A DNA stretch of 44,966 bases from Fibrobacterota bacterium (GTDB taxonomy: Bacteria > Fibrobacterota > Fibrobacteria > UBA11236), in NCBI GenBank assembly GCA_947482115.1, contig CANKII010000011.1, positions 1 to 44,966 of the forward strand, given 5' to 3'. Positions 25,531 through 44,966 of this stretch are shown piece after piece (the first letter of the stretch is position 1; every line of letters starts with the position of its first letter). The translations under genes and the position numbers were made by a program. The notes below the pieces were generated by a model. It did not search any database. It saw only the letters and a program-made list of their open reading frames with translations, and was not told the DNA's origin.

Positions 25531-25572
25531 AATGACTGGAAGGATTCGGACGAAGAGAAGTTGAGGGGTTAG
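25531..25572 (+). pseudogene. Displaced copy of the purB 3' end
   Basis: In frame it reads NDWKDSDEEKLRG and stop, against [13 protein letters not shown] and stop in purB; 34 of 42 bases are identical and several differences are silent (GAA/GAG, AAA/AAG, CTG/TTG). That pattern means it derives from a homologous coding sequence, not from chance. It has no upstream reading frame. Its last four bases overlap the stop codon of the KAP gene on the other strand. Confidence 0.72.
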
Positions 25573-26909
25573 AAAAAACTCAAATGATTATTGATTAACC
25601 TATCGGTATAAACTTTTACGCCTTCTTTATGTCCTAGCTTTGAGAAAAAATACAGAAGATTTTGTTCAAAATCTTCTGCTTGATGTTTTAGCGTGCCAGA
25701 ATAATCGACTAAATAATTATCGACCAAAGTTTTCAGATTACTTTTATTGGCATCTGCCACAATTAAATAACCGATAAGTTCTACTGGTATAATATTGTCA
25801 TCGTTAACTTTCTCTTTTAGTCTTTGAATGATTGCTTTTGACGCATCTTGGTCAGACATATATCTCTCATATAACTCTTTGTCTCTAATCTTTGCGCCCA
25901 AAATAAAAATCAAGTATTGGAACGGAATATTTCCAATATTCCGTTGTGTTTTTAAAATGGTGTTGAAAACAACGCAATAGTGTTCCACTTCACGCAAGGA
26001 AAAATCCCAAAATTCAATCGTGTTAAGAATAGAAGCGGCGATAATTCGGGCGTCTATCTGTCTGTCGCGCAGTAGTTCTACTACTTGTGTTTTTTCGAGG
26101 CAGGCAAAGAGAAAATTTCTTTTTGTCGGAATTGGCAAAGCAAAATCCAAGTCAATTATTCGTTTTAGGTAAGACTCAGTGTCAGTATTGTTGCCGTACA
26201 GGCACCTTAAAGAGCCTCCTAATTGTTTGCGATCAATGGACAAGACAAAGATTATTCCTTCTACAGTGAAGATGTGCTTTATTCTTTCCAAAAGCTGTAC
26301 AGCATAGGTCGGTCTACACCTGTCTAATTCGTCAACGAATATTATGACGGGCTTTGGTTGAGAAGGTTCTGCTTGGCCAATGTCCTTGGCTAAGGCTTTC
26401 AGCGACTCTTTAAAATTTTCGATAGATGCTTTTGTCTCTGAATATTTTTCAATAGCATCTTCGGATATGTTTTGAGAAAGATCCTCAAGGGCTCCGTCAA
26501 CATCGGGATTTATATTCACAATACCATGAGTTGCTAAACGAGCCGCCACAGGTAAAGCCCGTTTCAATAAAAAGGCCCCTAAATTTTTTGCCTTTGAAAG
26601 AAATTGTGCCGTTTGATTTTCAGGGAGCCCTTCCTTAAAATGACTTACAAAAGAGATAAACGGGTCTTCAGAAAAATCGTTTTCCCAAGCATTGAAATAG
26701 ATGCAATGGTAACCGCTTGCTTCCAATGAAGCTTTCCACATTTTTACAAAGGTTGTTTTACCAGTGCCCCATTTAGAGTCGATTCCTAAAACGTATGGAG
26801 TATCGGTAGACGAAATTAAAGTTGTGAGGAGATCTGCAATTGGTTTCCGTTCAAGCTTGTCATTTGCGAAAGGGTTAGCTGGATTAACTTCTATTTCGCG
26901 TATTTTCAT
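25569..26909 (-). CDS. KAP family P-loop NTPase
   Basis: The 446-residue protein shows Walker A in LGIDSKWGTGKTTFVKMW (about 41-58), the KAP-specific FNAWENDFSEDPFISFV (72-88) and Walker B VIIFVDELDRCRP (188-200), then FVLSIDRKQLGGSL. These define the KAP group, named for Kidins220/ARMS and PifA. Bacterial members are often membrane-linked and some act against phage (PifA). Here a weak hydrophobic segment lies at 111-131, so membrane attachment is uncertain. The gene is clearly AT-rich compared with purB and aspS and sits 25 bp behind aspS on the same strand. Its stop abuts the purB-tail remnant, so it may belong to the same acquired region. Confidence 0.8.
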   Translation of the reverse strand: MKIREIEVNPANPFANDKLERKPIADLLTTLISSTDTPYVLGIDSKWGTGKTTFVKMWKASLEASGYHCIYFNAWENDFSEDPFISFVSHFKEGLPENQTAQFLSKAKNLGAFLLKRALPVAARLATHGIVNINPDVDGALEDLSQNISEDAIEKYSETKASIENFKESLKALAKDIGQAEPSQPKPVIIFVDELDRCRPTYAVQLLERIKHIFTVEGIIFVLSIDRKQLGGSLRCLYGNNTDTESYLKRIIDLDFALPIPTKRNFLFACLEKTQVVELLRDRQIDARIIAASILNTIEFWDFSLREVEHYCVVFNTILKTQRNIGNIPFQYLIFILGAKIRDKELYERYMSDQDASKAIIQRLKEKVNDDNIIPVELIGYLIVADANKSNLKTLVDNYLVDYSGTLKHQAEDFEQNLLYFFSKLGHKEGVKVYTDRLINNHLSFF

Positions 26910-31034: not shown

Positions 31035-31772
31035 ATGTGGTTGAGATGGTTGACGAAGCCCCTTGTTCCCGCCCTGTTGGCATGGGGAGCCGTGTGTTTG
31101 ATCGTGTTCTATATGTTGAACGGTTGGCTCATGCCATCTTTTGCCGGGCGATTCGCCAGAACTTCCGAAGTGCCCAAACTTGTGGGATTGAAAATGGAAA
31201 AGGCGGGGGAGGTTTTGCAGCAGCAGGGCTTGAGCCTTATGCTGGATACCGTCTCCGATTTTAGCGCAGAAGTGGGCGCCGGGAAAATCATGTCGCAATT
31301 TCCCGATCCCGGCATGACGGTGAAGCGGGGACGGCGAATCTGGGTGCGCGTCAGCAAGGGCCGTCGCGCCGTTGAAGTTCCCGTCTTGCGCGGCATGTCG
31401 CAGCGACAGGCTGAGATTTCATTGCAGGAACGCGGTCTGCGTCTTGGTGGTGTGCATTATCTCTCCACGGCAGACGTTCCCGCCGGTGCGGTGGTCGGAA
31501 CGCATCCCGCTGCCAAAGCCATGGTGGAACGGGGGCGTTGGGTCGAAGTGGATGTTTCCTCAGGAATCAATCCGGCTGCAACCCAGATGCCATCTTTGGC
31601 TGGGCTTTCATTATCGCAGGCCCGTAATCAAATCGAAGCCTTGCATCTCACGGTGGGAACAGTCACCGAACGTCCCGATTCCAAAAGCCTGCCGCAAACG
31701 GTGCTCTCTCAAAATCCCTTGCCAGGCGCGCCGCTGAAAGGGGAGCCGGTTGATCTCGTGGTCTCTCCGTAA
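31035..31772 (+). CDS. Membrane-anchored protein with three PASTA domains, no kinase
   Basis: The 245-residue protein has one N-terminal membrane helix (PLVPALLAWGAVCLIVFYML) and three extracytoplasmic PASTA domains (about 45-108, 112-178, 182-245), each with the G-x-x-x-x-x-A pattern (VPKLVGLKMEKA, VPVLRGMSQRQA, MPSLAGLSLSQA). PASTA domains bind peptidoglycan or lipid II and usually form the tail of Ser/Thr kinases or PBPs; none is fused here. The ATG is 25 bp after the regulator stop. A role in envelope sensing is inferred. Confidence 0.85.
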   Translation: MWLRWLTKPLVPALLAWGAVCLIVFYMLNGWLMPSFAGRFARTSEVPKLVGLKMEKAGEVLQQQGLSLMLDTVSDFSAEVGAGKIMSQFPDPGMTVKRGRRIWVRVSKGRRAVEVPVLRGMSQRQAEISLQERGLRLGGVHYLSTADVPAGAVVGTHPAAKAMVERGRWVEVDVSSGINPAATQMPSLAGLSLSQARNQIEALHLTVGTVTERPDSKSLPQTVLSQNPLPGAPLKGEPVDLVVSP

Positions 31773-34132: not shown

Positions 34133-34303
34133 TTTCCCCCCCTTAGCCATACTTGTTTTTTGGGTATTGCCTCCGTTTGTAACGATTTTTCTCCGAATTG
34201 ATACATCATCAAGTCGCTTTCTTGGGTCATAAACAAAGAGGGCGCAGTATATTGCATGGCATAGTCATGGGTAATGCCAAAAAATGGGCGGGAGGATTTT
34301 AAA

Positions 34304-36601
34304 ATGAAGCTGAGCAAGAAATTTGGAATACTGACTCTTTTGTTGTGCACGGGCGGATCTTTTGCCGCAGCTTTTAATGCCAACTGGGCGTTTCCGGTCG
34401 GTCTAAGAAACGTGACACTTCCCTTGAATGTACCGATGCCGCACAGTCTGAATGCTTCCGCAACATCCGGCGGGCCGGCCACAGGCTGTTCGTCAACGCC
34501 AACGCTGCCTGCGGGGCTCGTGGTAAATCTTAGCGGCAGCACCTGCAAGATTTCCGGAACTCCCACGGCTGGCGCACCCCAAACGGTTTACACCATCACG
34601 GCAACCACCAGCGCCGCATCCAGCACCACCCCGGAAACTCTAACTGTCACCCCTGTCATGAATCTGGCCTATACGCAGAGCTTCGCCACCTATGCAGTAG
34701 GTACGGCCATTGATTCCAATCTGGCAACCGTGGTGGGCTCTGCTCCGGACGGTTATGCCGTTACTTCAGGAACCTTGCCCGCAGGGCTGTCCTTGAATTC
34801 AACAACGGGCATCATTACCGGAACTCCAACCGCCGTTACGGCAGCTTCCAATGTGACCATCACGGCCACCAACGGTGCTTTCACCTCTTCGGTCACGCTG
34901 AATATTGCGGTTCAGGCCGCAGTGGATTACGGCTCCTTCAACATGTACAAGGGAATTACCTATACCCCTTCCGGTATGGCCAGGAGTATCGGGAATTATC
35001 CGCTGCTCGTCAAACTGGATTCCAGTAATTTCGACTTTACGAAATCGATGTCGGATATTTCCACAGTTCCAGCGGGAACAAATTACACCGGCCCGGGAGG
35101 CGCGGATGTTCGATTTACTCGTGCTGATGGGAAGACGGATTTGCCATTTCAAATCGAGCGTTGGGACGGACTCAATCGACGGGCGGAAATTTGGGTGCTG
35201 ATACCCGTGATATCGATGAACACACCCACCATCATCCGGGTGTATTTCGGAAAAACCGGGCAGACCACAACGAGCAGCGATACGGCCGTGTTTTCCACCG
35301 CCAATAAATTCCAGGCAGTTTGGCACATGAACCAAGGCGGTACTGGGAATGAAGCGGATGCAACGCAAAACGCTTATACGGGCACGGCGGTTGGCACCAC
35401 TCCTCCGGCCACTTCGACCGGGTTGATTGGTTTGGGTCGCAATTTCACAGGCGGAACGGCTTCTCAGGCATTCACCACTACGGCCACCAGCGTCACGGGA
35501 TTTGTCAACAACGGTTTTTACACCCTTTCCGCGTGGGTGAACGCGACTACCATCAACACGGGTACCTATTACACCATCATTCAGAAACACGATCGCCAGT
35601 TCGCGTTGCAAGTGAACAACAGCAATCCCAACAAATGGGAATCCGCTGAATACAATGCCGACAGCGGTGGCACGGCAGGCGCCACAGCCTACGGCTGGAT
35701 GGGCACCGGTACGGGAGCATCCACTAATGCCACCACCGGAGTGCATTACGTCGTCGGCCAGCATGACGGCTTCTATCAACGGATATATCTGGATGGCAGC
35801 CTGTTGCAAACCAACAACGCCACGGGCGGTACGGGGAACGCAGTGGTGTCGTCCAGTACCACTGCGCCGACCCTGACCAATGCCGTCACCATCGGCAGAC
35901 AGTCTGAGTCCGCCACCGGCAGGCCCTGGCTCGGCAACCTGGATGAAATCCGCATGCACAGCACCGTGCGTGATTCCAACTGGATCAAGGCTGATTATCA
36001 AACCCAATTACCAACGGGTACTGCGGTAGCATATGGAGCCAATGTCGTTTTGACTGTCATTCCGGTGATCTCAGTAAACCCCGCTGCGCAAACGGTTCAG
36101 CTTCCTGCGAATACCGCGAAGTTCTTCGTGGTGGCCACGGGCACGGGTCCCTTCACCTACAAATGGATTCGAACGCGTACCGCAGGAACGGACACGCTTG
36201 CTAACACGGGGATATTCACCGGTACGGCGACGGACACGCTCCGTTTAACGGGTGTCACCCTGTCAGACAGTGGCTCAACTTTTAAATGCATGGTGAGTAA
36301 TGCCGCAGGCCCGGCGGTGAGTGCATCCGCTTCGCTTACCGTGTTGTCTGTGGTGGTCGGTATTTCGCCTTCATACGTGGTGCACGTGAAAGGCTTGAGT
36401 CCATTTTCGTTCCGCATACCGGAGGGTGTGAATGCCGTTCGAATGACCGTGGAAAACATGAAGGGACAGGCAGTGTGGAACCGGGAGCTTACCCCGACGC
36501 GTGAGCGCACAGTATCCTGGAATGGCAGCGGCACGGATGGCCATGCGGTGTCTCCCGGAATGTATGTGGTTCGGTTGAAGTTTATTGCATCAGGGCGGTA
36601 A
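34304..36601 (+). CDS. Secreted multidomain protein (He_PIG, DUF2341, LamG-like, Ig, C-terminal sorting-like domain)
   Basis: A 765-residue protein from the ATG at 34304, which has GGGAGGA upstream. The signal peptide ends about residue 21 (GGSFAAA). Next come two He_PIG Ig-like repeats with the LPAGL.LN..TG.I.GTP signature (about 30-205), a DUF2341 domain (from about 207, with DVRFTRADGKTDLPFQIERW), a concanavalin A-like/LamG-like region (about 335-575, starting QAVWHMN), and an Ig-like domain (about 585-685). The last 80 residues (SPFSFRIPEGVNAVRMTVENM, then SPGMYVVRL) resemble FlgD-Ig or type IX sorting tails. Its first 570 residues are closely paralogous to those of the next gene. A surface or glycan-binding role is likely. 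Confidence 0.8.
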   Translation: MKLSKKFGILTLLLCTGGSFAAAFNANWAFPVGLRNVTLPLNVPMPHSLNASATSGGPATGCSSTPTLPAGLVVNLSGSTCKISGTPTAGAPQTVYTITATTSAASSTTPETLTVTPVMNLAYTQSFATYAVGTAIDSNLATVVGSAPDGYAVTSGTLPAGLSLNSTTGIITGTPTAVTAASNVTITATNGAFTSSVTLNIAVQAAVDYGSFNMYKGITYTPSGMARSIGNYPLLVKLDSSNFDFTKSMSDISTVPAGTNYTGPGGADVRFTRADGKTDLPFQIERWDGLNRRAEIWVLIPVISMNTPTIIRVYFGKTGQTTTSSDTAVFSTANKFQAVWHMNQGGTGNEADATQNAYTGTAVGTTPPATSTGLIGLGRNFTGGTASQAFTTTATSVTGFVNNGFYTLSAWVNATTINTGTYYTIIQKHDRQFALQVNNSNPNKWESAEYNADSGGTAGATAYGWMGTGTGASTNATTGVHYVVGQHDGFYQRIYLDGSLLQTNNATGGTGNAVVSSSTTAPTLTNAVTIGRQSESATGRPWLGNLDEIRMHSTVRDSNWIKADYQTQLPTGTAVAYGANVVLTVIPVISVNPAAQTVQLPANTAKFFVVATGTGPFTYKWIRTRTAGTDTLANTGIFTGTATDTLRLTGVTLSDSGSTFKCMVSNAAGPAVSASASLTVLSVVVGISPSYVVHVKGLSPFSFRIPEGVNAVRMTVENMKGQAVWNRELTPTRERTVSWNGSGTDGHAVSPGMYVVRLKFIASGR

Positions 36602-36630
36602 TTCATACATCCTCATACATCCGCCGCACA

Positions 36631-36669
36631 GGTTCCATTCGATTGTAGCTTGGAACCCCCCCCTTTTTT
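36631..36669 (+). terminator. Candidate terminator of the first large secreted protein
   Basis: GGTTCCA (36631-36637) pairs with TGGAACC (36651-36657) across a 13-nt loop, followed by a C-run and six T. The spacing between stem and T-run is longer than usual. Confidence 0.4.
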
Positions 36670-36922
36670 GGTAAAAACTGAACATAGTCTTGTTGGAATG
36701 GCCTATTTCAACCTCATTTTTTATCAAATCTTCCCGTGAAGGCCTCATCGGTGAAAAAGATCAACGGGCGCTTCAGCCTTTGACACGAATTTTCGTGTTA
36801 CGAAAGGTATCAGACTGAAGTTGGAAAAGAGAGATAAAGAGCGGAAAAGGGTAATATTCGTTAACATTCGGACTATTTCTGGAGGTATATTCAGTTACCC
36901 GGATGAAATATTTTGGGAGATA

Positions 36923-36950
36923 TTTTTTAGTGATTCGCGTCACTGAAAAA
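36923..36950. promoter_or_regulatory. CRP-like inverted repeat upstream of the giant gene
   Basis: AGTGA-N6-TCACT (36929-36944) lies inside a longer symmetry with T-runs on the left and A-runs on the right. It differs from the E. coli CRP half-site TGTGA by its first base. It is centred about 133 bp before the ATG at 37069. Two Crp/Fnr regulators are encoded in this window. Confidence 0.45.
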
Positions 36951-37068
36951 TGATTTGGGACGGAGTTTGGAGCTTTTCAGCCCACGAGTGTCCTAAAATG
37001 CAGGAAGTTTAGCGTAACTGTGGCGTGTGAGTTGGTAACGGGCTGTGACTTTTAAAGAGGATGGCATT

Positions 37069-40000
37069 ATGAAAATGAAACTCGGCAAGAAACTTGGAAT
37101 ACTGACTCTTGTGTTGGGTATGAGCGGTGCCTTCGCTGCGGCTTGGAATGCCAACTGGGCATTTCCGGTGGGTTTGAGGAACGTGGTGTTACCGCTGAAC
37201 GTTGCCCTGCCTCATAGCCTTAACGCCAGCGCAACTTCGGGTGGACCGGCCACGGGTTGTTCCTCAAGTCCAGCCCTGCCCACCGGTCTCACCGTCACAT
37301 CAAGCGGCAGTACTTGCAAGATTTCCGGGACACCCACGGTGGCGACTCCTCAAACGGTTTACACAATCACATCAACCACCAGTGCGGCTTCCAGTACAAC
37401 TCCGGAAACGCTTACGGTGGCTTCCGTCATTTTGCGTGGTTACACCCAGAACGTTGCCAACTATGCCGTGGGTGCAGCTATCGATTCCAATTTGGCATCC
37501 ATCATCGGTTCCGCCCCGGATGGTTATTCCGTGACTTCTGGAACTTTGCCTTCAGGTCTTTCCTTGGATGCCGTTACGGGCGCTATTACAGGTACACCCA
37601 CTACGGTGGCTGGAGCAACCAATGTGACTATCACTGCGACTAACGGTTCTTTTACTTCATCAGCCACCCTCAGTATCGCCATCCAAGCCGCAGTGGATTA
37701 TAACTCCTTCAGCAATTACAAGGATATCACCTACACGCCTACAGGTGGATTGGTCAATAACGTGGGGAATTACCCCCTGCTCATCAAATTGACTTCCAGC
37801 AATTTCGACTTCACACAATCGACCTCCGACATTTCCTCCGTTCCTGCAGGAACGAACTATACCGGCACGGGTGGCGCGGATATTCGTTTCACCCGTGCAG
37901 ATGGCGTGACCGATTTGCCCTACCAGATCGAACGCTGGAATTCCACGAGTCAGCTCGCTGAAATTTGGGTGTTGGTGCCATCGATTTCCAAGAGTACTCC
38001 CACCACTATCCGGATGTACTTCGGAAAAACGGGACAGACCACCACCAGTAGCGCCACGGGGGTCTTTTCCACCGCCAACAAGTTTCAGGCCGTCTGGCAC
38101 ATGAATCAGGGCGGCACAGGCAATGAGTTGGATGCGACACAAAATGGATATACTGCCACGGCAACGGGTACTGCAAATCCCACCACTACCTCTACCATGA
38201 TTGGTTTGGGCCGTAATTTTGCCGGCGGTACTGCGTCACAATGTTTTAGGGCATTGACAGCCAGAAGCGTCACCGGTTTTTCACAGAATGGCTTTTATAC
38301 AATCTCCGCTTGGGTTAATCCTACCACGGTTGCTGCCAGTACTTATTACACAGTTATTCAAAAGCATGACAGACAATTCGCCTTGCAGATCACCAACGCT
38401 GCTACCAACGTGTGGGAATCTGCCGAATACAACGCGGACTCCGGAGGTGCTGCTGGCGCAACTCCTTATGGTTGGCATGGGGCTGTAAATCAGACGACTA
38501 GGAATGCTGTAACAGGTGTTCACTATTTAGTTGGACAACACGAGGGCTTTTATCATCGGCTTTATTACGACGGAGCTTTGGTTTATAACAATGGTGGTAG
38601 TACTGGTGTGTCTTCGCCGGGGACTAACACTCCTATACTTGATAGCGCGGTCACCATCGGTCGGCAAGCGGAATCCACCAATGGCAGACCTTGGCTTGGA
38701 AACCTGGACGAAATTCGCATGCATAATACTGTGCGCGATTCTAGCTGGCTTAAAGCGGACTTCCAGACGCAATCACCTACCGGCACGGCAGTGACTTATG
38801 GCGCCACCACGCCTACCAGCACGGATGCTCCGTCGGGCATCAGCTATTCCAGTAATCCCGCCTCCTATGATGGTGGTTCTGCAATTACACCCAATACCGC
38901 CACTCTCTCTGTTGGCTATTCCTCCAACTGGACGGTCACGCCTGCACTGCCAACAGGTTTATCCTTAAACTCTGCCAACGGTACCATTTCCGGAACGCCC
39001 ACTGTGGCAACCGGTGCTGCGAATTATCAAGTTAAAGCCACCAATAATTTTGGTGCGGATTCGACTTTGGTGAACCTCACCGTGAATGCCGTTGCCCCGT
39101 CGAATCTGGTTTACTCCAACACCACTTATACCTTTGGTGCCAACCAGTCGAGCACGTCGGTCACTCCCTCGGTGAACAAAGGCGGACTTGTAGCGACTTA
39201 CACCTCGGATCCCCTTCCTGCTGGATTGAGCATTGACGGCGTCACCGGTATCATCTCCGGCACCCCGACAACGGGTACGGCGACTGCGACGTACAACGTT
39301 TACGTCACGAATACCTCGGGCAGTACATCAATTGCTCTCAGCATCACGGTGCTGAACCCCATTGCCACATTCACCTATGACACGCATACCCTGACGCTTG
39401 GCAAGAATGTGGCCATGACGGCGGATAATGCCACGGTGACGGGAACGGATCCGTTCACACCGGTGAAATTCTTTGTGGGCACGACTTTGCCAGCGGGTCT
39501 TGTCCTGGATTCACTCACAGGCACTGTGTCGGGAACTCCCACAGTGAATCTGGCTGCGACCAAATACGGAATCACGGCCAAGAACGGGATTACGGCGTTT
39601 AATCGCACGGATACGCTGACGATCTCGATTCCGAATGCGCCTACTGCGCTGACATATTCCTCCAATACTCCAATTTATGAGGATGGGCAGGCGATTGCCA
39701 CCAACTCACCCTCGCCATCGGGCACGACTCCGTTCCTGCCGGTCACCTACGCGGTGACTGCGGGTTCGCTGCCTGCGGGTTTGACGCTCAACGCCGATGG
39801 AACCATCACGGGTACTGTTTCTGTGGGTGCTTCCGCCAGCAGTCCCTATGCGGTTTCCATCACAGCCACGAATCCATCGGGGTCGGCTACGGATTCCATC
39901 CTGGTGATCACCGTGCTCAGTTCGGAGGATTATTCGGGCTGGACTTACAACAAGAGCATGACGCTGAATACGTCCACGTTGGCGGCAGGCGTGACCACGG

Positions 40001-43000
40001 CGCAGACAAACTTCCCTGTTCTGGTTCGCCTGACCGGCAGTCACGCGACGGTTTTCAGTCAAGCTATGGCAAACGGTGAGGACATCCGTTTCACGAACGG
40101 AAGCGGAACGCATTTGCCCTATCAAATTGAACGCTGGAGTTTTGCTCCCGGAGACACTTCTGCGGCCATTTGGGTGGCGGCGGATAATGTGGCGGCCAGC
40201 AATACAACCACCATCAAAATGTACTGGGGCAACGGTTCTGCCACCAGCCGCTCCAATGGCGCGGCCGTGTTCAGCAGCGGCTATGTTGGCGTATGGCATT
40301 TGGGAGATGCCACGGGCATCGATCCACGTCCTAACGCGGTGGCTGGAGCTCCTACCGCGAAACTGGCCAACAACTTTACCGGCGTGGAGTTTGGCGGCGG
40401 AGCGGGTACCTATGTCATTCCAAACGGTGTCATCGGCAAAGCGGACACTCTCCGTGGCGGCGGTACAAGGGCCGTACCAACCGCCGCAAGCGATTACCTC
40501 AACATCGGTGATAATGCGGACAGCACGCAGGCCTCAAACACAGCTCCCTATTACCAAGGCAAGAACACGTATACCGGATACAGTAATTTCAGTACCGGCT
40601 TCACATATTCGTTATGGGTAAAACCCACGCAGGGTGCTGCAGGTAACTTCACCTACATGCTCGAGCTTGCAACAACGAATGGGGCTTCCAATAACATTCA
40701 ATTCTTCCGCCCCAATCAGGACAGCGTCTATCGATACGAACACGTTAATAACACCACCAGCGGTGGCACCAAGTCTTCAAATGCCAGTACCATGAAGCCC
40801 TTTAATACATGGCAGCACATTGTTGTGACTGTGGGAACAGGTAGCACCCCCACCGTGAACTTGTACAAGAACGGGGCTACGATGTTCACGGCCTCGAACG
40901 CGACGAATGCCATGGCCAACATTCTCCGTACCAATGCCTGGATAGGAAAATCCAATTACACGGGGGATTTTTATTTCAGAGGCGCTTTTGACGAGCCCGA
41001 AATCTCCAACGTGGCCCGCTCTTCCGACTGGATCCGATTGACCTATAAGAACCAGAAAACGGGTGTCACTCCCGTGTTTGATCTTTCCTATTCAACCCCC
41101 ACCGCATCTTACACCTTTGGTTCAGCCATCACGACCAACAGCCCGTCGGTCACGGGTAATGCGACTCGTTATTCCGTGTCTCCGACTTTGCCCGCAGGCT
41201 TGACATTGAGCAGCTCAACCGGTGCCATCACTGGTACACCGAGTGGTACGGCATCTTCGGCTACGGATTACACCATCACGGCGTTGAGCGACAGCGCATG
41301 GTCCACCACCGCCACGGTGAACATCACCGTCCTCGCGGCTCTACCGACTGTTGCGTACACCCCGACCTCGGTTTCCTATCGCGCTGGTGACATTATTTCC
41401 AAGCTGACTCCGACCATCAGCACGGGTGGAGAAACTCCCGTTATCACCGTCTCTCCGTCTCTTCCTTCGGGCCTCAGCCTGAATTCCACCACGGGTGTCA
41501 TTTCCGGCGCTCCGACTTCCGCTCAAGGCGCGGCGGACTATGTGTTCACCGCGACCAACAGTTCCGGTTCCAGCATGGATACGGTGAACATCACCGTCAC
41601 AGCGGGTGAGGACTATTCTTCATGGACTTATCACAGCGACATGACCTTGAATACGACGACTGCAGGTGCGAACGTGTCCACCGGCGTGGGCAGTGTTCCC
41701 GTGCTGGTTCGTCTGACCGGAAAACATGCGGTGGTGTTCAACCAAGCGCAATCCACAGGTGCGGACATCCGTTTCACCAACGCAGGCGGCAGCCACCTTG
41801 CGTATCAGAAGGAGCGTTGGAGTTTTGCGCCGGGAGACACCTCTGCAGCCATTTGGGTTCTTGCGGATACCGTTTCCGCGAGCGGCACCACCAATGTGCG
41901 CATGTACTGGGGCAACGGTTCAGCCACGGATGATTCCCGCCCGACGGCGGTGTTTGACACGGCGAACGGATTCCAAGGTGTGTGGCATTTGGGTGAAGCG
42001 ACGGATGCGAGTGTGGGCGATGCAACGGTGAACAACTTCACCGGCACACCCGGTACCACCGGTACGGGCGGCAATCCGTTTGACACCACGGGTGTCATCG
42101 GCCAAGCCAAGAGCTTCCGCGTCACCACATTTTCAGGTGGTGCCGGTACGGCGGGAGCATTTTACTCCATGGCTGGAACCGCAAGCAGCAAGCTGAATTA
42201 TCTGGAAGGTTCGATTTATACGGTCTCGGCCTGGGTTCGGGCCTACGACATCGTCAACTCCGGAAAGATCGTGTCCAAGGGGGACAGGCAGTATTACCTG
42301 TCGAAACGGAATACGGGAGCAAGTTGGGAGTTTTCAGAGAACAAGGCCGCTACGGGTTATCAGCAATGGCGGCAGGCTTCTGTGGCGAACCAGTGGAAAT
42401 ACATGGTGGGCGTCCGTCTAAGCAGCGCCACCGGTTCTGCGGGCGGAGCGATGTACATGAACGGTTCCACAGCCAACACCGCTTTTACAACGGGTGGTGC
42501 GGCTGCGAACGTCACAACCGACATCGTGAACATCGGCCGTGACCCGAATCAGGGCGGAACCCCGGGTTATTACTTCACCGGTGCGATTGATGAAGTGACG
42601 ATTTCAAACGTGGCACGCTCTGCGGGTTGGATCCAGTTGAATTACATGAATCAGAAGCCGGGTGTGACGCCGCTGTTCAACCTCAACTATCCGGTGTCGT
42701 CCCCTGCGTACACGAGCCTTATACCGATTCCCACGGATTCGCCGACGGTTGCAGGTAATGCGACGCGTTTTGCCATTGACTCGGCTCTTCCCGCCGGTCT
42801 TTCATTCAGCACTGCCACGGGAGCGATTACGGGAGCTCCCTCGGTACCTTTTGCTTCGCGCAACTACACGGTGACGGCTTACGGTGACAGCGCGTGGTCC
42901 ACGACGACAACCTTGAACATCACGGTGAATGCCAACGCGGGTCCTCCGACCAATCTGACTTACTCCCCGAACACCCAGTTGTTCGGAGTAAACGTTGCTG

Positions 43001-44966
43001 GATCAGGCGTTACCCCGTCTGTCATTAACGGGGATACGACGGTTCGTGTTTACTCTTCCGATCCCCTTCCTGCGGGCCTCTCCATCAACAGTGCCACGGG
43101 TGTGATTTCGGGAACACCGACGACACCGCAGGCGGCACAAAGCTACATGGTCCGGTTCACGAACAGCTTTGGTTATGATTCGACGCTGGTGAGCATTCGT
43201 GTGACGGTGGCTCCAAGCAACCTGCACTATGCCATCAACCCTGCGGTGCTAGTGAAGACCATCCTGTTCACGGACACTCCGACGGTGACCGACACGGTGA
43301 CGAGTTATTCCATCGATACGACATCGATCAAACTTCTCCCCACCGGCATAGCTTTCAGCAAGACGACGGGTATTTTCTCCGGCACCCCCACGGCGGTGAA
43401 GGTGGCGACGAGTTACATCGTTACGGCCACCAACCTTGCGGGTTCGGACACCGAGACGATAACCTTGACGGTGAATCCTGCGGCTCCGACAGCGTTGAAC
43501 TATGCCGCTTCGGTTTCCTATCAGGTGGGGGATTCTGCAAGCATTACCCCCACGTTCACCGGAGAGGGTCTGACCTTCTCCGTGAATCCGTCCTTGCCTT
43601 CGGGCCTGAATCTCAGTTCCTCCACGGGTGTGATTTCGGGAACCACGGCTGCGACTGCTTCTGCGACGGATTATGTGATCACAGCGTCGAATGCAACGGG
43701 TTCCATCATGGATACCATCAACATCACCGTGGCGTTTGATGATTACAACACCTGGGGACATTCCGCGAGTCTGACGCTCAACACCACAGCGGCAGGGGCT
43801 GGAGTCACTACGAGCGGTGTGGGTAAATTCCCTGTATTAGTGCGTTTAACCAATGCGCATCGCAGCGTATTCCAGCAGTCTCTTGCCGGTGGTACGGACA
43901 TCCGTTTCTCAAACGCAGGTGGAACCCATCTTCCATATCAAATCGAGCGCTGGAGTACGGTGCCCGGTGATACTTCGGCAGCCATCTGGGTGCAGGCGGA
44001 TACTGTCTCAGCCAATGGCACTACCACGGTCAACATGTATTGGGGCAACGGAGCTGCCGTGGATCGATCCAACGGTACTGCGGTATTCATTCCCTCGAGC
44101 GGATACTTGGGCGTCTGGCATTTGGGAGATGCTACGGGAACTGCCGGACGGCCAAACGCCGTGACCCCGGGTTCTAATTCCGCTACTCCTTCCAATGGCG
44201 TGCTTGCTGTGCCTCCTGCCGTGTCCTTGGCTCCCGTAAAAGGCATCATCGGCATGGCGGATTCCCTGCCCAGTGGTACCACCAACGGAACCTTTCTCGA
44301 CTTGGGTGTTCTTCCCGCAGGCTATCAAACCGCCTTCACCGGTGGATTGACTTATTCGTTGTGGGCCAACATTGCGGCTGGCACCCTTGCATATACCCGC
44401 CTTGTGGATATTGGCCCAACATCGGGTCAAGCCAATGAACTTTGTCTGCGTCGAGAGAACCAAACCGCTAATATGGGTGCTGAGCTGCGCAATGCCGCAA
44501 CCTATACCGGTAACACGCCGCTGGCCACGAATTATTGGCAAGGGGGAACGGGCTACCATCATTTTGTCGTGACTTTGAGTCCTTCCACCGTGAACTCGGG
44601 CAAAAATGTTGTCATCTATAAGGACGGTGTGCCGACGACTGGAACCCTTGGGCTATCCCTTATAGCAGCTCCCCGCGTTGTGGGTCGGCTTGGGATGGGC
44701 GGTGTTGGTGATGGCAATCCGCCTGGTTTGGTGGCGTTTGACCAAGTTGAGATTTCCAACACGACCCGTTCGGGGGATTGGGTGAAGTTGAGTTATAAAA
44801 CCCAGAAGGCGACAACGGCCCCTGTGTTCGCATTGACGTATCCCGTAACGACGGCGAACTTCAACCAGAACGCAGCGATTACAGCGGACTCTCCGTCGGT
44901 GATGGGTACATCTACGCGTTTCACGATATCCCCGACCCTTCCGACGGGCCTTACGTTCAGCACGAC
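37069..44966 (+). CDS. Giant secreted repeat protein, He_PIG / DUF2341 / LamG-like (3' end outside window)
   Basis: I read this frame from the ATG at 37069 to the window end without meeting a stop, so at least 2,632 residues are present and the C-terminus is missing. AAAGAGG precedes the ATG. The signal peptide ends near residue 23 (SGAFAAA). He_PIG repeats are marked by LP-x-G-(L/I) at about residues 73, 160, 627, 716, 807, 901, 1374, 1465, 1907, 2000, 2090, 2176 and 2624. Four DUF2341 domains start near 210, 953, 1514 and 2223, each followed about 125-130 residues on by VWH(M/L), the start of a LamG-like region. Units 2-4 share DIRF(T/S)N and MYWGNG. The first 570 residues match the preceding gene. 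Expected to be a cell-surface adhesin or glycan-binding protein. Confidence 0.85.
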   Translation, partial: MKMKLGKKLGILTLVLGMSGAFAAAWNANWAFPVGLRNVVLPLNVALPHSLNASATSGGPATGCSSSPALPTGLTVTSSGSTCKISGTPTVATPQTVYTITSTTSAASSTTPETLTVASVILRGYTQNVANYAVGAAIDSNLASIIGSAPDGYSVTSGTLPSGLSLDAVTGAITGTPTTVAGATNVTITATNGSFTSSATLSIAIQAAVDYNSFSNYKDITYTPTGGLVNNVGNYPLLIKLTSSNFDFTQSTSDISSVPAGTNYTGTGGADIRFTRADGVTDLPYQIERWNSTSQLAEIWVLVPSISKSTPTTIRMYFGKTGQTTTSSATGVFSTANKFQAVWHMNQGGTGNELDATQNGYTATATGTANPTTTSTMIGLGRNFAGGTASQCFRALTARSVTGFSQNGFYTISAWVNPTTVAASTYYTVIQKHDRQFALQITNAATNVWESAEYNADSGGAAGATPYGWHGAVNQTTRNAVTGVHYLVGQHEGFYHRLYYDGALVYNNGGSTGVSSPGTNTPILDSAVTIGRQAESTNGRPWLGNLDEIRMHNTVRDSSWLKADFQTQSPTGTAVTYGATTPTSTDAPSGISYSSNPASYDGGSAITPNTATLSVGYSSNWTVTPALPTGLSLNSANGTISGTPTVATGAANYQVKATNNFGADSTLVNLTVNAVAPSNLVYSNTTYTFGANQSSTSVTPSVNKGGLVATYTSDPLPAGLSIDGVTGIISGTPTTGTATATYNVYVTNTSGSTSIALSITVLNPIATFTYDTHTLTLGKNVAMTADNATVTGTDPFTPVKFFVGTTLPAGLVLDSLTGTVSGTPTVNLAATKYGITAKNGITAFNRTDTLTISIPNAPTALTYSSNTPIYEDGQAIATNSPSPSGTTPFLPVTYAVTAGSLPAGLTLNADGTITGTVSVGASASSPYAVSITATNPSGSATDSILVITVLSSEDYSGWTYNKSMTLNTSTLAAGVTTAQTNFPVLVRLTGSHATVFSQAMANGEDIRFTNGSGTHLPYQIERWSFAPGDTSAAIWVAADNVAASNTTTIKMYWGNGSATSRSNGAAVFSSGYVGVWHLGDATGIDPRPNAVAGAPTAKLANNFTGVEFGGGAGTYVIPNGVIGKADTLRGGGTRAVPTAASDYLNIGDNADSTQASNTAPYYQGKNTYTGYSNFSTGFTYSLWVKPTQGAAGNFTYMLELATTNGASNNIQFFRPNQDSVYRYEHVNNTTSGGTKSSNASTMKPFNTWQHIVVTVGTGSTPTVNLYKNGATMFTASNATNAMANILRTNAWIGKSNYTGDFYFRGAFDEPEISNVARSSDWIRLTYKNQKTGVTPVFDLSYSTPTASYTFGSAITTNSPSVTGNATRYSVSPTLPAGLTLSSSTGAITGTPSGTASSATDYTITALSDSAWSTTATVNITVLAALPTVAYTPTSVSYRAGDIISKLTPTISTGGETPVITVSPSLPSGLSLNSTTGVISGAPTSAQGAADYVFTATNSSGSSMDTVNITVTAGEDYSSWTYHSDMTLNTTTAGANVSTGVGSVPVLVRLTGKHAVVFNQAQSTGADIRFTNAGGSHLAYQKERWSFAPGDTSAAIWVLADTVSASGTTNVRMYWGNGSATDDSRPTAVFDTANGFQGVWHLGEATDASVGDATVNNFTGTPGTTGTGGNPFDTTGVIGQAKSFRVTTFSGGAGTAGAFYSMAGTASSKLNYLEGSIYTVSAWVRAYDIVNSGKIVSKGDRQYYLSKRNTGASWEFSENKAATGYQQWRQASVANQWKYMVGVRLSSATGSAGGAMYMNGSTANTAFTTGGAAANVTTDIVNIGRDPNQGGTPGYYFTGAIDEVTISNVARSAGWIQLNYMNQKPGVTPLFNLNYPVSSPAYTSLIPIPTDSPTVAGNATRFAIDSALPAGLSFSTATGAITGAPSVPFASRNYTVTAYGDSAWSTTTTLNITVNANAGPPTNLTYSPNTQLFGVNVAGSGVTPSVINGDTTVRVYSSDPLPAGLSINSATGVISGTPTTPQAAQSYMVRFTNSFGYDSTLVSIRVTVAPSNLHYAINPAVLVKTILFTDTPTVTDTVTSYSIDTTSIKLLPTGIAFSKTTGIFSGTPTAVKVATSYIVTATNLAGSDTETITLTVNPAAPTALNYAASVSYQVGDSASITPTFTGEGLTFSVNPSLPSGLNLSSSTGVISGTTAATASATDYVITASNATGSIMDTINITVAFDDYNTWGHSASLTLNTTAAGAGVTTSGVGKFPVLVRLTNAHRSVFQQSLAGGTDIRFSNAGGTHLPYQIERWSTVPGDTSAAIWVQADTVSANGTTTVNMYWGNGAAVDRSNGTAVFIPSSGYLGVWHLGDATGTAGRPNAVTPGSNSATPSNGVLAVPPAVSLAPVKGIIGMADSLPSGTTNGTFLDLGVLPAGYQTAFTGGLTYSLWANIAAGTLAYTRLVDIGPTSGQANELCLRRENQTANMGAELRNAATYTGNTPLATNYWQGGTGYHHFVVTLSPSTVNSGKNVVIYKDGVPTTGTLGLSLIAAPRVVGRLGMGGVGDGNPPGLVAFDQVEISNTTRSGDWVKLSYKTQKATTAPVFALTYPVTTANFNQNAAITADSPSVMGTSTRFTISPTLPTGLTFST

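Follow-up and report, generated by a model that had tools for sequence, protein, structure and literature searches.

One or several FhaB and/or DUF2341 domains occur in 82 of the 149 Patescibacteria proteins longer than 4000 aa that are covered in the cited part of PMC11809585. The archaeal DUF2341 proteins of pilus loci have been hypothesised to be pilus-tip adhesins by analogy with PilY (PMC4858521), and DUF2341 has also been described as an addition, with unknown function, to generic ion-transporter subunits (PMC12505986). Giant surface proteins and LamG proteins of nanohaloarchaea are thought to be host-binding (PMC10266531), and the ConA-like module of the minor pilin PilC of Streptococcus sanguinis binds sialylated glycans and glycosaminoglycans (PMC9934059). 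The T9SS is said to be present in several FCB phyla (PMC11285876); in Fibrobacter succinogenes its type A cargo carries a TIGR04183 tail, for which covalent attachment to the outer membrane was proposed (PMC6851124). All of these statements are those of the excerpts cited.

We analyzed a stretch of 44,966 bases (the window), which is the entire contig C11 of a 2.72-Mb Fibrobacterota genome assembled in 15 contigs and 99.4% complete. Its 3' part is occupied by a giant gene that reads from an ATG at 37069 and stays open through 44964 (2632 codons), as had been predicted; the mechanical frame spans 37045..44964 and begins with a GTG. Three Pfam domain types were identified in the giant, all scoring far above chance: He_PIG (PF05345; 12 stretches, 288.7 bits against a cut-off of 24, E 1.4e-87), DUF2341 (PF10102; 4 stretches, 197.8 bits against 23.4, E 3.2e-59), and Laminin_G_3 (PF13385; 4 stretches, 115.7 bits against 27.6, E 2.8e-33). 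The features of the giant, its upstream neighbor and the contig-end repeat are as follows (identities are between amino acid sequences).

34274..36601, plus strand: neighbouring DUF2341/LamG gene, 775 aa, with a FlgD-Ig-like tail at 26.1 bits, just below the cut-off of 27
37069..37143, plus strand: signal-peptide-like N-terminus, recognized by eye (basic start, hydrophobic core, Ala-Ala-Ala)
37147..37692, plus strand: He_PIG block a, 2 cores, 78% identical to the upstream gene
37693..38094, plus strand: DUF2341 of head 1 (PF10102 at 37873-38091), 75% identical to the upstream gene
38095..38823, plus strand: LamG of head 1 (Laminin_G_3), 69% identical to the upstream gene, boundary set by motif
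38824..39924, plus strand: He_PIG block b, 4 cores, 84% identical to the C4 giant
39925..40293, plus strand: DUF2341 of head 2 (PF10102 at 40072-40275), 95% identical to the C4 giant
40294..41052, plus strand: LamG of head 2 (Laminin_G_3), 67% identical to the C4 giant
41053..41607, plus strand: He_PIG block c, 2 cores, 92% identical to the C4 giant
41608..41982, plus strand: DUF2341 of head 3 (PF10102 at 41758-41979), 91% identical to the C4 giant
41983..42654, plus strand: LamG of head 3, 34% and 33% identical to the collinear heads of C4 and C8; head 3 was modelled
42655..43740, plus strand: He_PIG block d, 3 cores and a fourth by eye, 93% identical to the C8 giant and 80% to the C4 giant
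43741..44115, plus strand: DUF2341 of head 4 (PF10102 at 43891-44091), 76% identical to the C8 giant and 62% to the C4 giant
44116..44808, plus strand: LamG of head 4, 87% identical to the second of the LamG domains in a C8 gene of 846 aa, and 27% and 36% to the collinear heads of C8 and C4
44809..44964, plus strand: next He_PIG block, cut by the contig end, 100% identical to the C4 giant and 92% to the C8 giant
44818..44966, no strand: 149-bp exact repeat, the shared end of C11 and C4, exact with C8 over 128 bp

The order along the chain is two He_PIG, a head, four He_PIG, a head, two He_PIG, a head, four He_PIG, a head, and then one cut He_PIG. By motif pattern, the DUF2341 cores lie at residues 271, 1005, 1566, and 2277, with later spacings of 561 residues, exactly as foreseen in the original prediction, and 711 residues, where 709 had been given. 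The pattern finds 2, 4, 2, and 3 He_PIG cores per block; the fourth core of block d (near residue 2188) was read by eye and is consistent with the Pfam total. Both the four DUF2341 plus LamG units proposed earlier, for which the HMM search had been suggested, and the intervening He_PIG blocks of four, two and four are borne out by these counts, the two He_PIG that precede head 1 having gone unmentioned. A scan of positions 36590-37080 revealed no promoter and one terminator-like site, which is within chance. Elsewhere in the window, positions 31035-31769 encode a protein with three PASTA stretches that adjoins Crp-family and TPR genes, and positions 25572-26909 encode a KAP-family P-loop NTPase close to ordinary housekeeping genes.

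Because a 149-bp exact repeat common to the paralogues lies at the contig ends, the open end of the giant is an assembly break. The last 149 bases of C11 are exactly the start of C4 in reverse complement, and the giant DUF2341 genes on C4 and C8 run off their contigs at this repeat, C8 about 21 bases further on; the fourth giant, on C14, runs off its contig at another point. A search of the genome for the 3' end of the giant returned near-identical copies of its last 185 bases only at the starts of C4 and C8, where those contigs end as well. At the opposite end, positions 1-149 of the window are an exact 149-bp copy of the C15 5' end, another repeat common to broken contigs.

For the C8 sister giant, a continuation was found in a deposited contig (CANIWY010000019.1, hereafter L097), which is 100% identical to the start of C8 over 11,615 bp and then extends for a further 2.6 kb (about 860 codons) that encode additional He_PIG. 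Read in L097, the frame of the C8 giant is still open after 3243 residues, by which point it has encoded 4 heads and 19 He_PIG. Within our own genome, the L097 continuation is matched by the end of C14 and by shorter, weaker repeats. L097 is titled a Nitrosomonadaceae MAG yet shares its 11,615 bp with C8 without a difference, and it looks misbinned. In both the C8 (through L097) and the C14 giants, four N-terminal heads are followed by a long array of He_PIG only, which rules out a simple alternating head/stalk supermodule. By analogy, we infer that the missing part of the window giant would resemble that of the C8 giant.

The genome possesses 42 DUF2341 matches in 29 distinct frames of very different sizes (in the stretches fetched), and four of these frames are giants with four heads apiece. 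DUF2341 was found in all 10 genomes searched within the family, at 10 to 64 matches each and in frames of up to 5997 codons among the matches listed. Across a phylum sample of 60 genomes, DUF2341 was detected at E<=0.001 in 33 and over the cut-off in 30; the count per genome is 0 to 2 in the 26 sampled members of family f2, a family of the same class, with a best E of 1.4e-7. The 5997-codon frame of a relative (G005 contig C72, L084 3-17993) is open and carries five DUF2341 heads. A search for more relatives for the alignment yielded 20 viral-contig stretches that fit a pattern, none of them a relative.

Profile searches identified SprA (558.7 bits when neighbouring stretches are included, cut-off 200), a C25 peptidase (255.8 bits, over the cut-off), which is the family that includes PorU, and the PorV family (141.7 bits, cut-off 90) in the genome. 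The GldK model reached just 63.5 bits, its cut-off being 350, and gave matches in 4 of the 14 control genomes as well. For the T9SS type A tail, 32 matches at E<=0.001 were counted in the genome; the TIGR04183 model matches 2 of the 14 control genomes, over the cut-off in 1. Among the 24 stop-ended DUF2341 frames of the genome, a TIGR04183 tail is present in 12 and FlgD_ig in 14 at E<=0.01; the tails of the other 12 do not reach this level for TIGR04183, and several tail scores lie near the curated cut-off. In the relatives, four multi-head frames end in a stop (1983, 1480, 1453, and 4613 codons); FlgD_ig is present at E<=0.01 in three of them, and the fourth (L082) matches a FlgD model at E 0.025. 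Since the C-terminus of the window giant is absent from the assembly, its T9SS tail is proposed by analogy with these genes. A cell that bears T9SS probably has two membranes, and it is in such a cell that the PASTA protein of the window occurs.

Several further frames were noted in the same genome. The He_PIG-rich frames at L058 7623-12956, L059 8113-13056, L056 1122-2576, and L053 15773-19999 share a similar LGV-type C-terminus, and no T9SS-like tail was seen on them. A programmed frameshift on C1 (L058 12956) was considered and rejected by eye, as the stop directly precedes an apparent new gene with its own ATG. The DUF2341 frames at L041 143-2188, L033 607-1947, and L025 706-1944 are shortened or odd-tailed and are possibly decayed genes.

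Two structure models were built from nine sequences each. One, covering head 2 and the He_PIG that follows it, was of poor quality (mean pLDDT 53.0); the other, of head 3, was fair in parts at a low-confidence mean pLDDT of 58.8. Such a structure prediction of one DUF2341-LamG unit had been suggested earlier, and it returned a ConA-like jelly roll for the LamG of head 3. The top-ranking structures for this domain are ConA-like jelly rolls, among them many sialidase CBM40 domains, and TM-scores on the model are low, at 0.20-0.33 among the best 50 matches listed. Foldseek ranks a CBM40 first, at a TM-score of 0.32 on the model and an E of 1.5e-5. The sialidase-type CBM40 of Ruminococcus gnavus (6er3_B) aligns over 164 residues at Z 14.6 and rmsd 2.9, tied with the jelly roll of clostridial NTNHA and with jelly rolls of other kinds. 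PilC (PDB 7oa7) holds rank 7 as a loose match (TM 0.25, rmsd 9.7), and it is absent from the sequence matches of the head profile. The models support a lectin-type ConA-like fold for the LamG heads, for which glycan binding is putative. Kinship with clostridial neurotoxin/NTNH was rejected: identities are 7-18% among the matches listed and Pfam finds no toxin domain, so the high ranks were read merely as the shared jelly-roll fold.

Taken as a whole, the giant gene probably encodes a secreted protein of very large size that resides on the cell surface, and we assign a probability of about 0.6 to its being a T9SS-exported, multivalent, lectin-like surface adhesin. The domains, the T9SS genes, the tails of the paralogues and the lectin-type LamG fold agree with the secreted multi-headed binding protein of the original prediction; the alternation of modules that went with it is contradicted by the sister giants, and the polysaccharide or host surface named there is a candidate ligand. 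Missing from that prediction is the most telling feature, LamG heads that appear exchanged on a better-conserved scaffold of DUF2341 and He_PIG. The protein would leave the cytoplasm by Sec and then cross by T9SS through a C-terminal Ig-like sorting domain encoded beyond the contig end. Anchored at that end, it would use the He_PIG-only array as a stalk that holds four heads off the cell. The concave face of each LamG may bind a glycan, and weak single contacts would be summed across the four heads. The scaffold could then be re-armed with other LamG heads, and adhesion altered, through gene conversion or ectopic recombination among paralogues.

Judged by its sequence affinities, the giant is a mosaic whose parts resemble four or more paralogous genes. 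The 775-aa gene immediately upstream shares 73% identity with residues 1-579 and is the putative source or sister of this part. From residue 586 the chain is collinear with the C4 giant, and from residue 1863 onward its He_PIG and the DUF2341 of head 4 more closely resemble the C8 giant. From head 2 on, DUF2341 and He_PIG show 76-95% identity to the nearer collinear paralogue, and the three LamG domains 67%, 34%, and 36%. The 846-aa gene related to the LamG of head 4 sits near the opposite end of C8, in locus L041, and an exact 42-bp match between the giant and L041 begins at 44116, which is the first base of that LamG. In contrast to the scaffold, the LamG heads have the appearance of having been exchanged among related genes.

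A comparison of 41 heads in 820 pairs extends this pattern to the whole genome (one of 42 heads, cut by a contig end, was too short and was left out). DUF2341 similarity and LamG similarity correlate at r=0.19, as against 0.61 between halves of DUF2341 and 0.58 between halves of LamG, in pairs that are not independent of each other. Among the 10 pairs with DUF2341 similarity >=0.75, LamG similarity is <=0.40 in 8 and >=0.60 in 2. Conversely, DUF2341 similarity is <=0.61 in 6 of the 10 pairs with LamG similarity >=0.65, or in 5 by a strict cut, because one DUF2341 value rounds to 0.61. Giants and one-head genes on other contigs are likewise connected through similar LamGs, as for head 3 of the C4 giant and a C2 gene (LamG 0.74, DUF2341 0.49). 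The ancestry of LamG thus appears largely uncoupled from that of the adjoining DUF2341.

The apparent decoupling is strong in the genome of the window, and the claim is confined to it. Scores for the relatives, calculated from fetched stretches, are mixed. G008 (12 heads) has r=0.13, but its DUF2341 halves correlate at just 0.34. G005 (r=0.36) and G004 (r=0.38), with 10 heads each, reveal no clear decoupling, since their LamG halves themselves correlate at 0.39 and 0.42. DUF2341 and LamG are coupled in the 12 fetched heads of G006 (r=0.61). G001, G002, G003, G007, and G009, with fewer than 6 heads in the fetched stretches, were left out of the scoring.

Two other accounts of the mosaic were weighed. 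LamG could simply evolve faster than DUF2341 within the same heads, and LamG similarities are generally the lower (medians over head pairs of 0.34 and 0.46). We consider this very doubtful, because in several of the best-matching LamG pairs the DUF2341 domains are distant from each other (0.86 in LamG as against 0.50 in DUF2341 between head 4 of the window and the second head of the 846-aa gene), and the fourfold synonymous sites switch as well. Relative to the C4 giant, identical fourfold sites number 8/40 in the LamG of head 3 and 46/69 in its DUF2341 (p 3.2e-6); the LamG of head 4 has 88/117 identical with the 846-aa gene and 14/48 with the C4 head (p 5.5e-8). Two of the nine comparisons are not significant (LamG2/HePIG_c and LamG4/DUF4, both against C4, p 0.14 each). 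A chimera of paralogues made by the assembler is conceivable where contigs break at paralogue repeats, and it is still less probable: outside the contig-end region, exact matches between the giant and 40 own-genome stretches (L039-L078) extend to 101 bp at most, short of the 149 bp at which contigs break, so that a misjoin is unlikely. Moreover, the exchanged LamG of head 4 is 87%, not 100%, identical to its relative, and the separately deposited L097, which may come from the same sample, agrees completely with the C8 giant over the length that they share. An identical run of 101 bp exceeds a shuffle maximum of 69 and, together with patches of near-identity in He_PIG (fourfold sites against C8 identical at 67/76 in residues 2000-2119 and at 17/48 in residues 2240-2340), points to gene conversion among paralogues; uneven selection along the chain may also contribute to run lengths. 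The identical runs shared with C4 (68 and 77 bp, shuffle maxima 69 and 74) are less striking.

As to function, the giant might be a scaffold for feeding, whose T9SS-exported LamG heads act as carbohydrate-binding modules and hold dissolved or particulate polysaccharide near enzymes. ConA-like jelly rolls do serve glycosidases in this capacity (CBM40 of sialidases and the arabinanase AbnA are among the matches), and T9SS tails are reported on lignocellulose enzymes of F. succinogenes in the cited part of PMC6851124; Pfam, however, finds no enzyme domain in the giant or in the neighbouring DUF2341 gene, and we regard this role as rather unlikely. We give less credence again to a structural coat or matrix protein (S-layer-like or slime) in which the partners of the heads are other copies of the protein or polysaccharide of the same cell. 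The best PDB sequence match of the head profile is indeed an S-layer-domain protein (4qvs, E 1e-5), but a self-assembling coat is not expected to have variable heads on a more constant scaffold, nor do 29 DUF2341 frames of widely differing size in one genome fit it well.

For the lectin-like adhesin, head exchange is more interesting than the size of the protein, being a plausible way for the bacterium to vary what it sticks to. In these heads DUF2341, a domain of unknown function, is steadier than the variable LamG beside it; a testable role would be that of a docking or spacer domain on which exchangeable lectins are presented. A wider and more tentative proposal, possible rather than probable, is that continuing recombination among paralogues transfers some forty lectin-like heads, carried on 29 frames, to and from four giant T9SS stalks and so diversifies the binding of a probably free-living bacterium. 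Should heads still be exchanged today, the speed at which the surface is re-armed could be measured by population genomics within one species.

Each of the systems introduced above shares part of this arrangement. The Patescibacteria proteins likewise place DUF2341 in giant chains for which adhesion is proposed, but they belong to another phylum, and the cited part of PMC11809585 describes them without LamG partners, T9SS tails or exchanged heads. The archaeal type IV pilus-locus proteins are also large and carry DUF2341; their context is a pilus, and neither a He_PIG giant nor T9SS is mentioned in the cited part of PMC4858521. PilC resembles the window heads in placing an Ig-like module before a ConA-like one (excerpt of PMC9934059), and it differs from the giant as a single head on a type IV pilin with different anchoring. 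The F. succinogenes cargo has the same C-terminal sorting tail (TIGR04183) as the paralogues here, and the proteins described in the cited part of PMC6851124 are lignocellulose enzymes, unlike multi-head LamG giants. Narrow searches of the literature returned no published DUF2341/LamG family with exchanged heads. The proposed exchange system may be likened to the antigenic-variation loci that diversify the surfaces of pathogens. A large modular adhesin is thus a known kind of protein, and the new part is the steadier DUF2341 paired with an exchangeable LamG.
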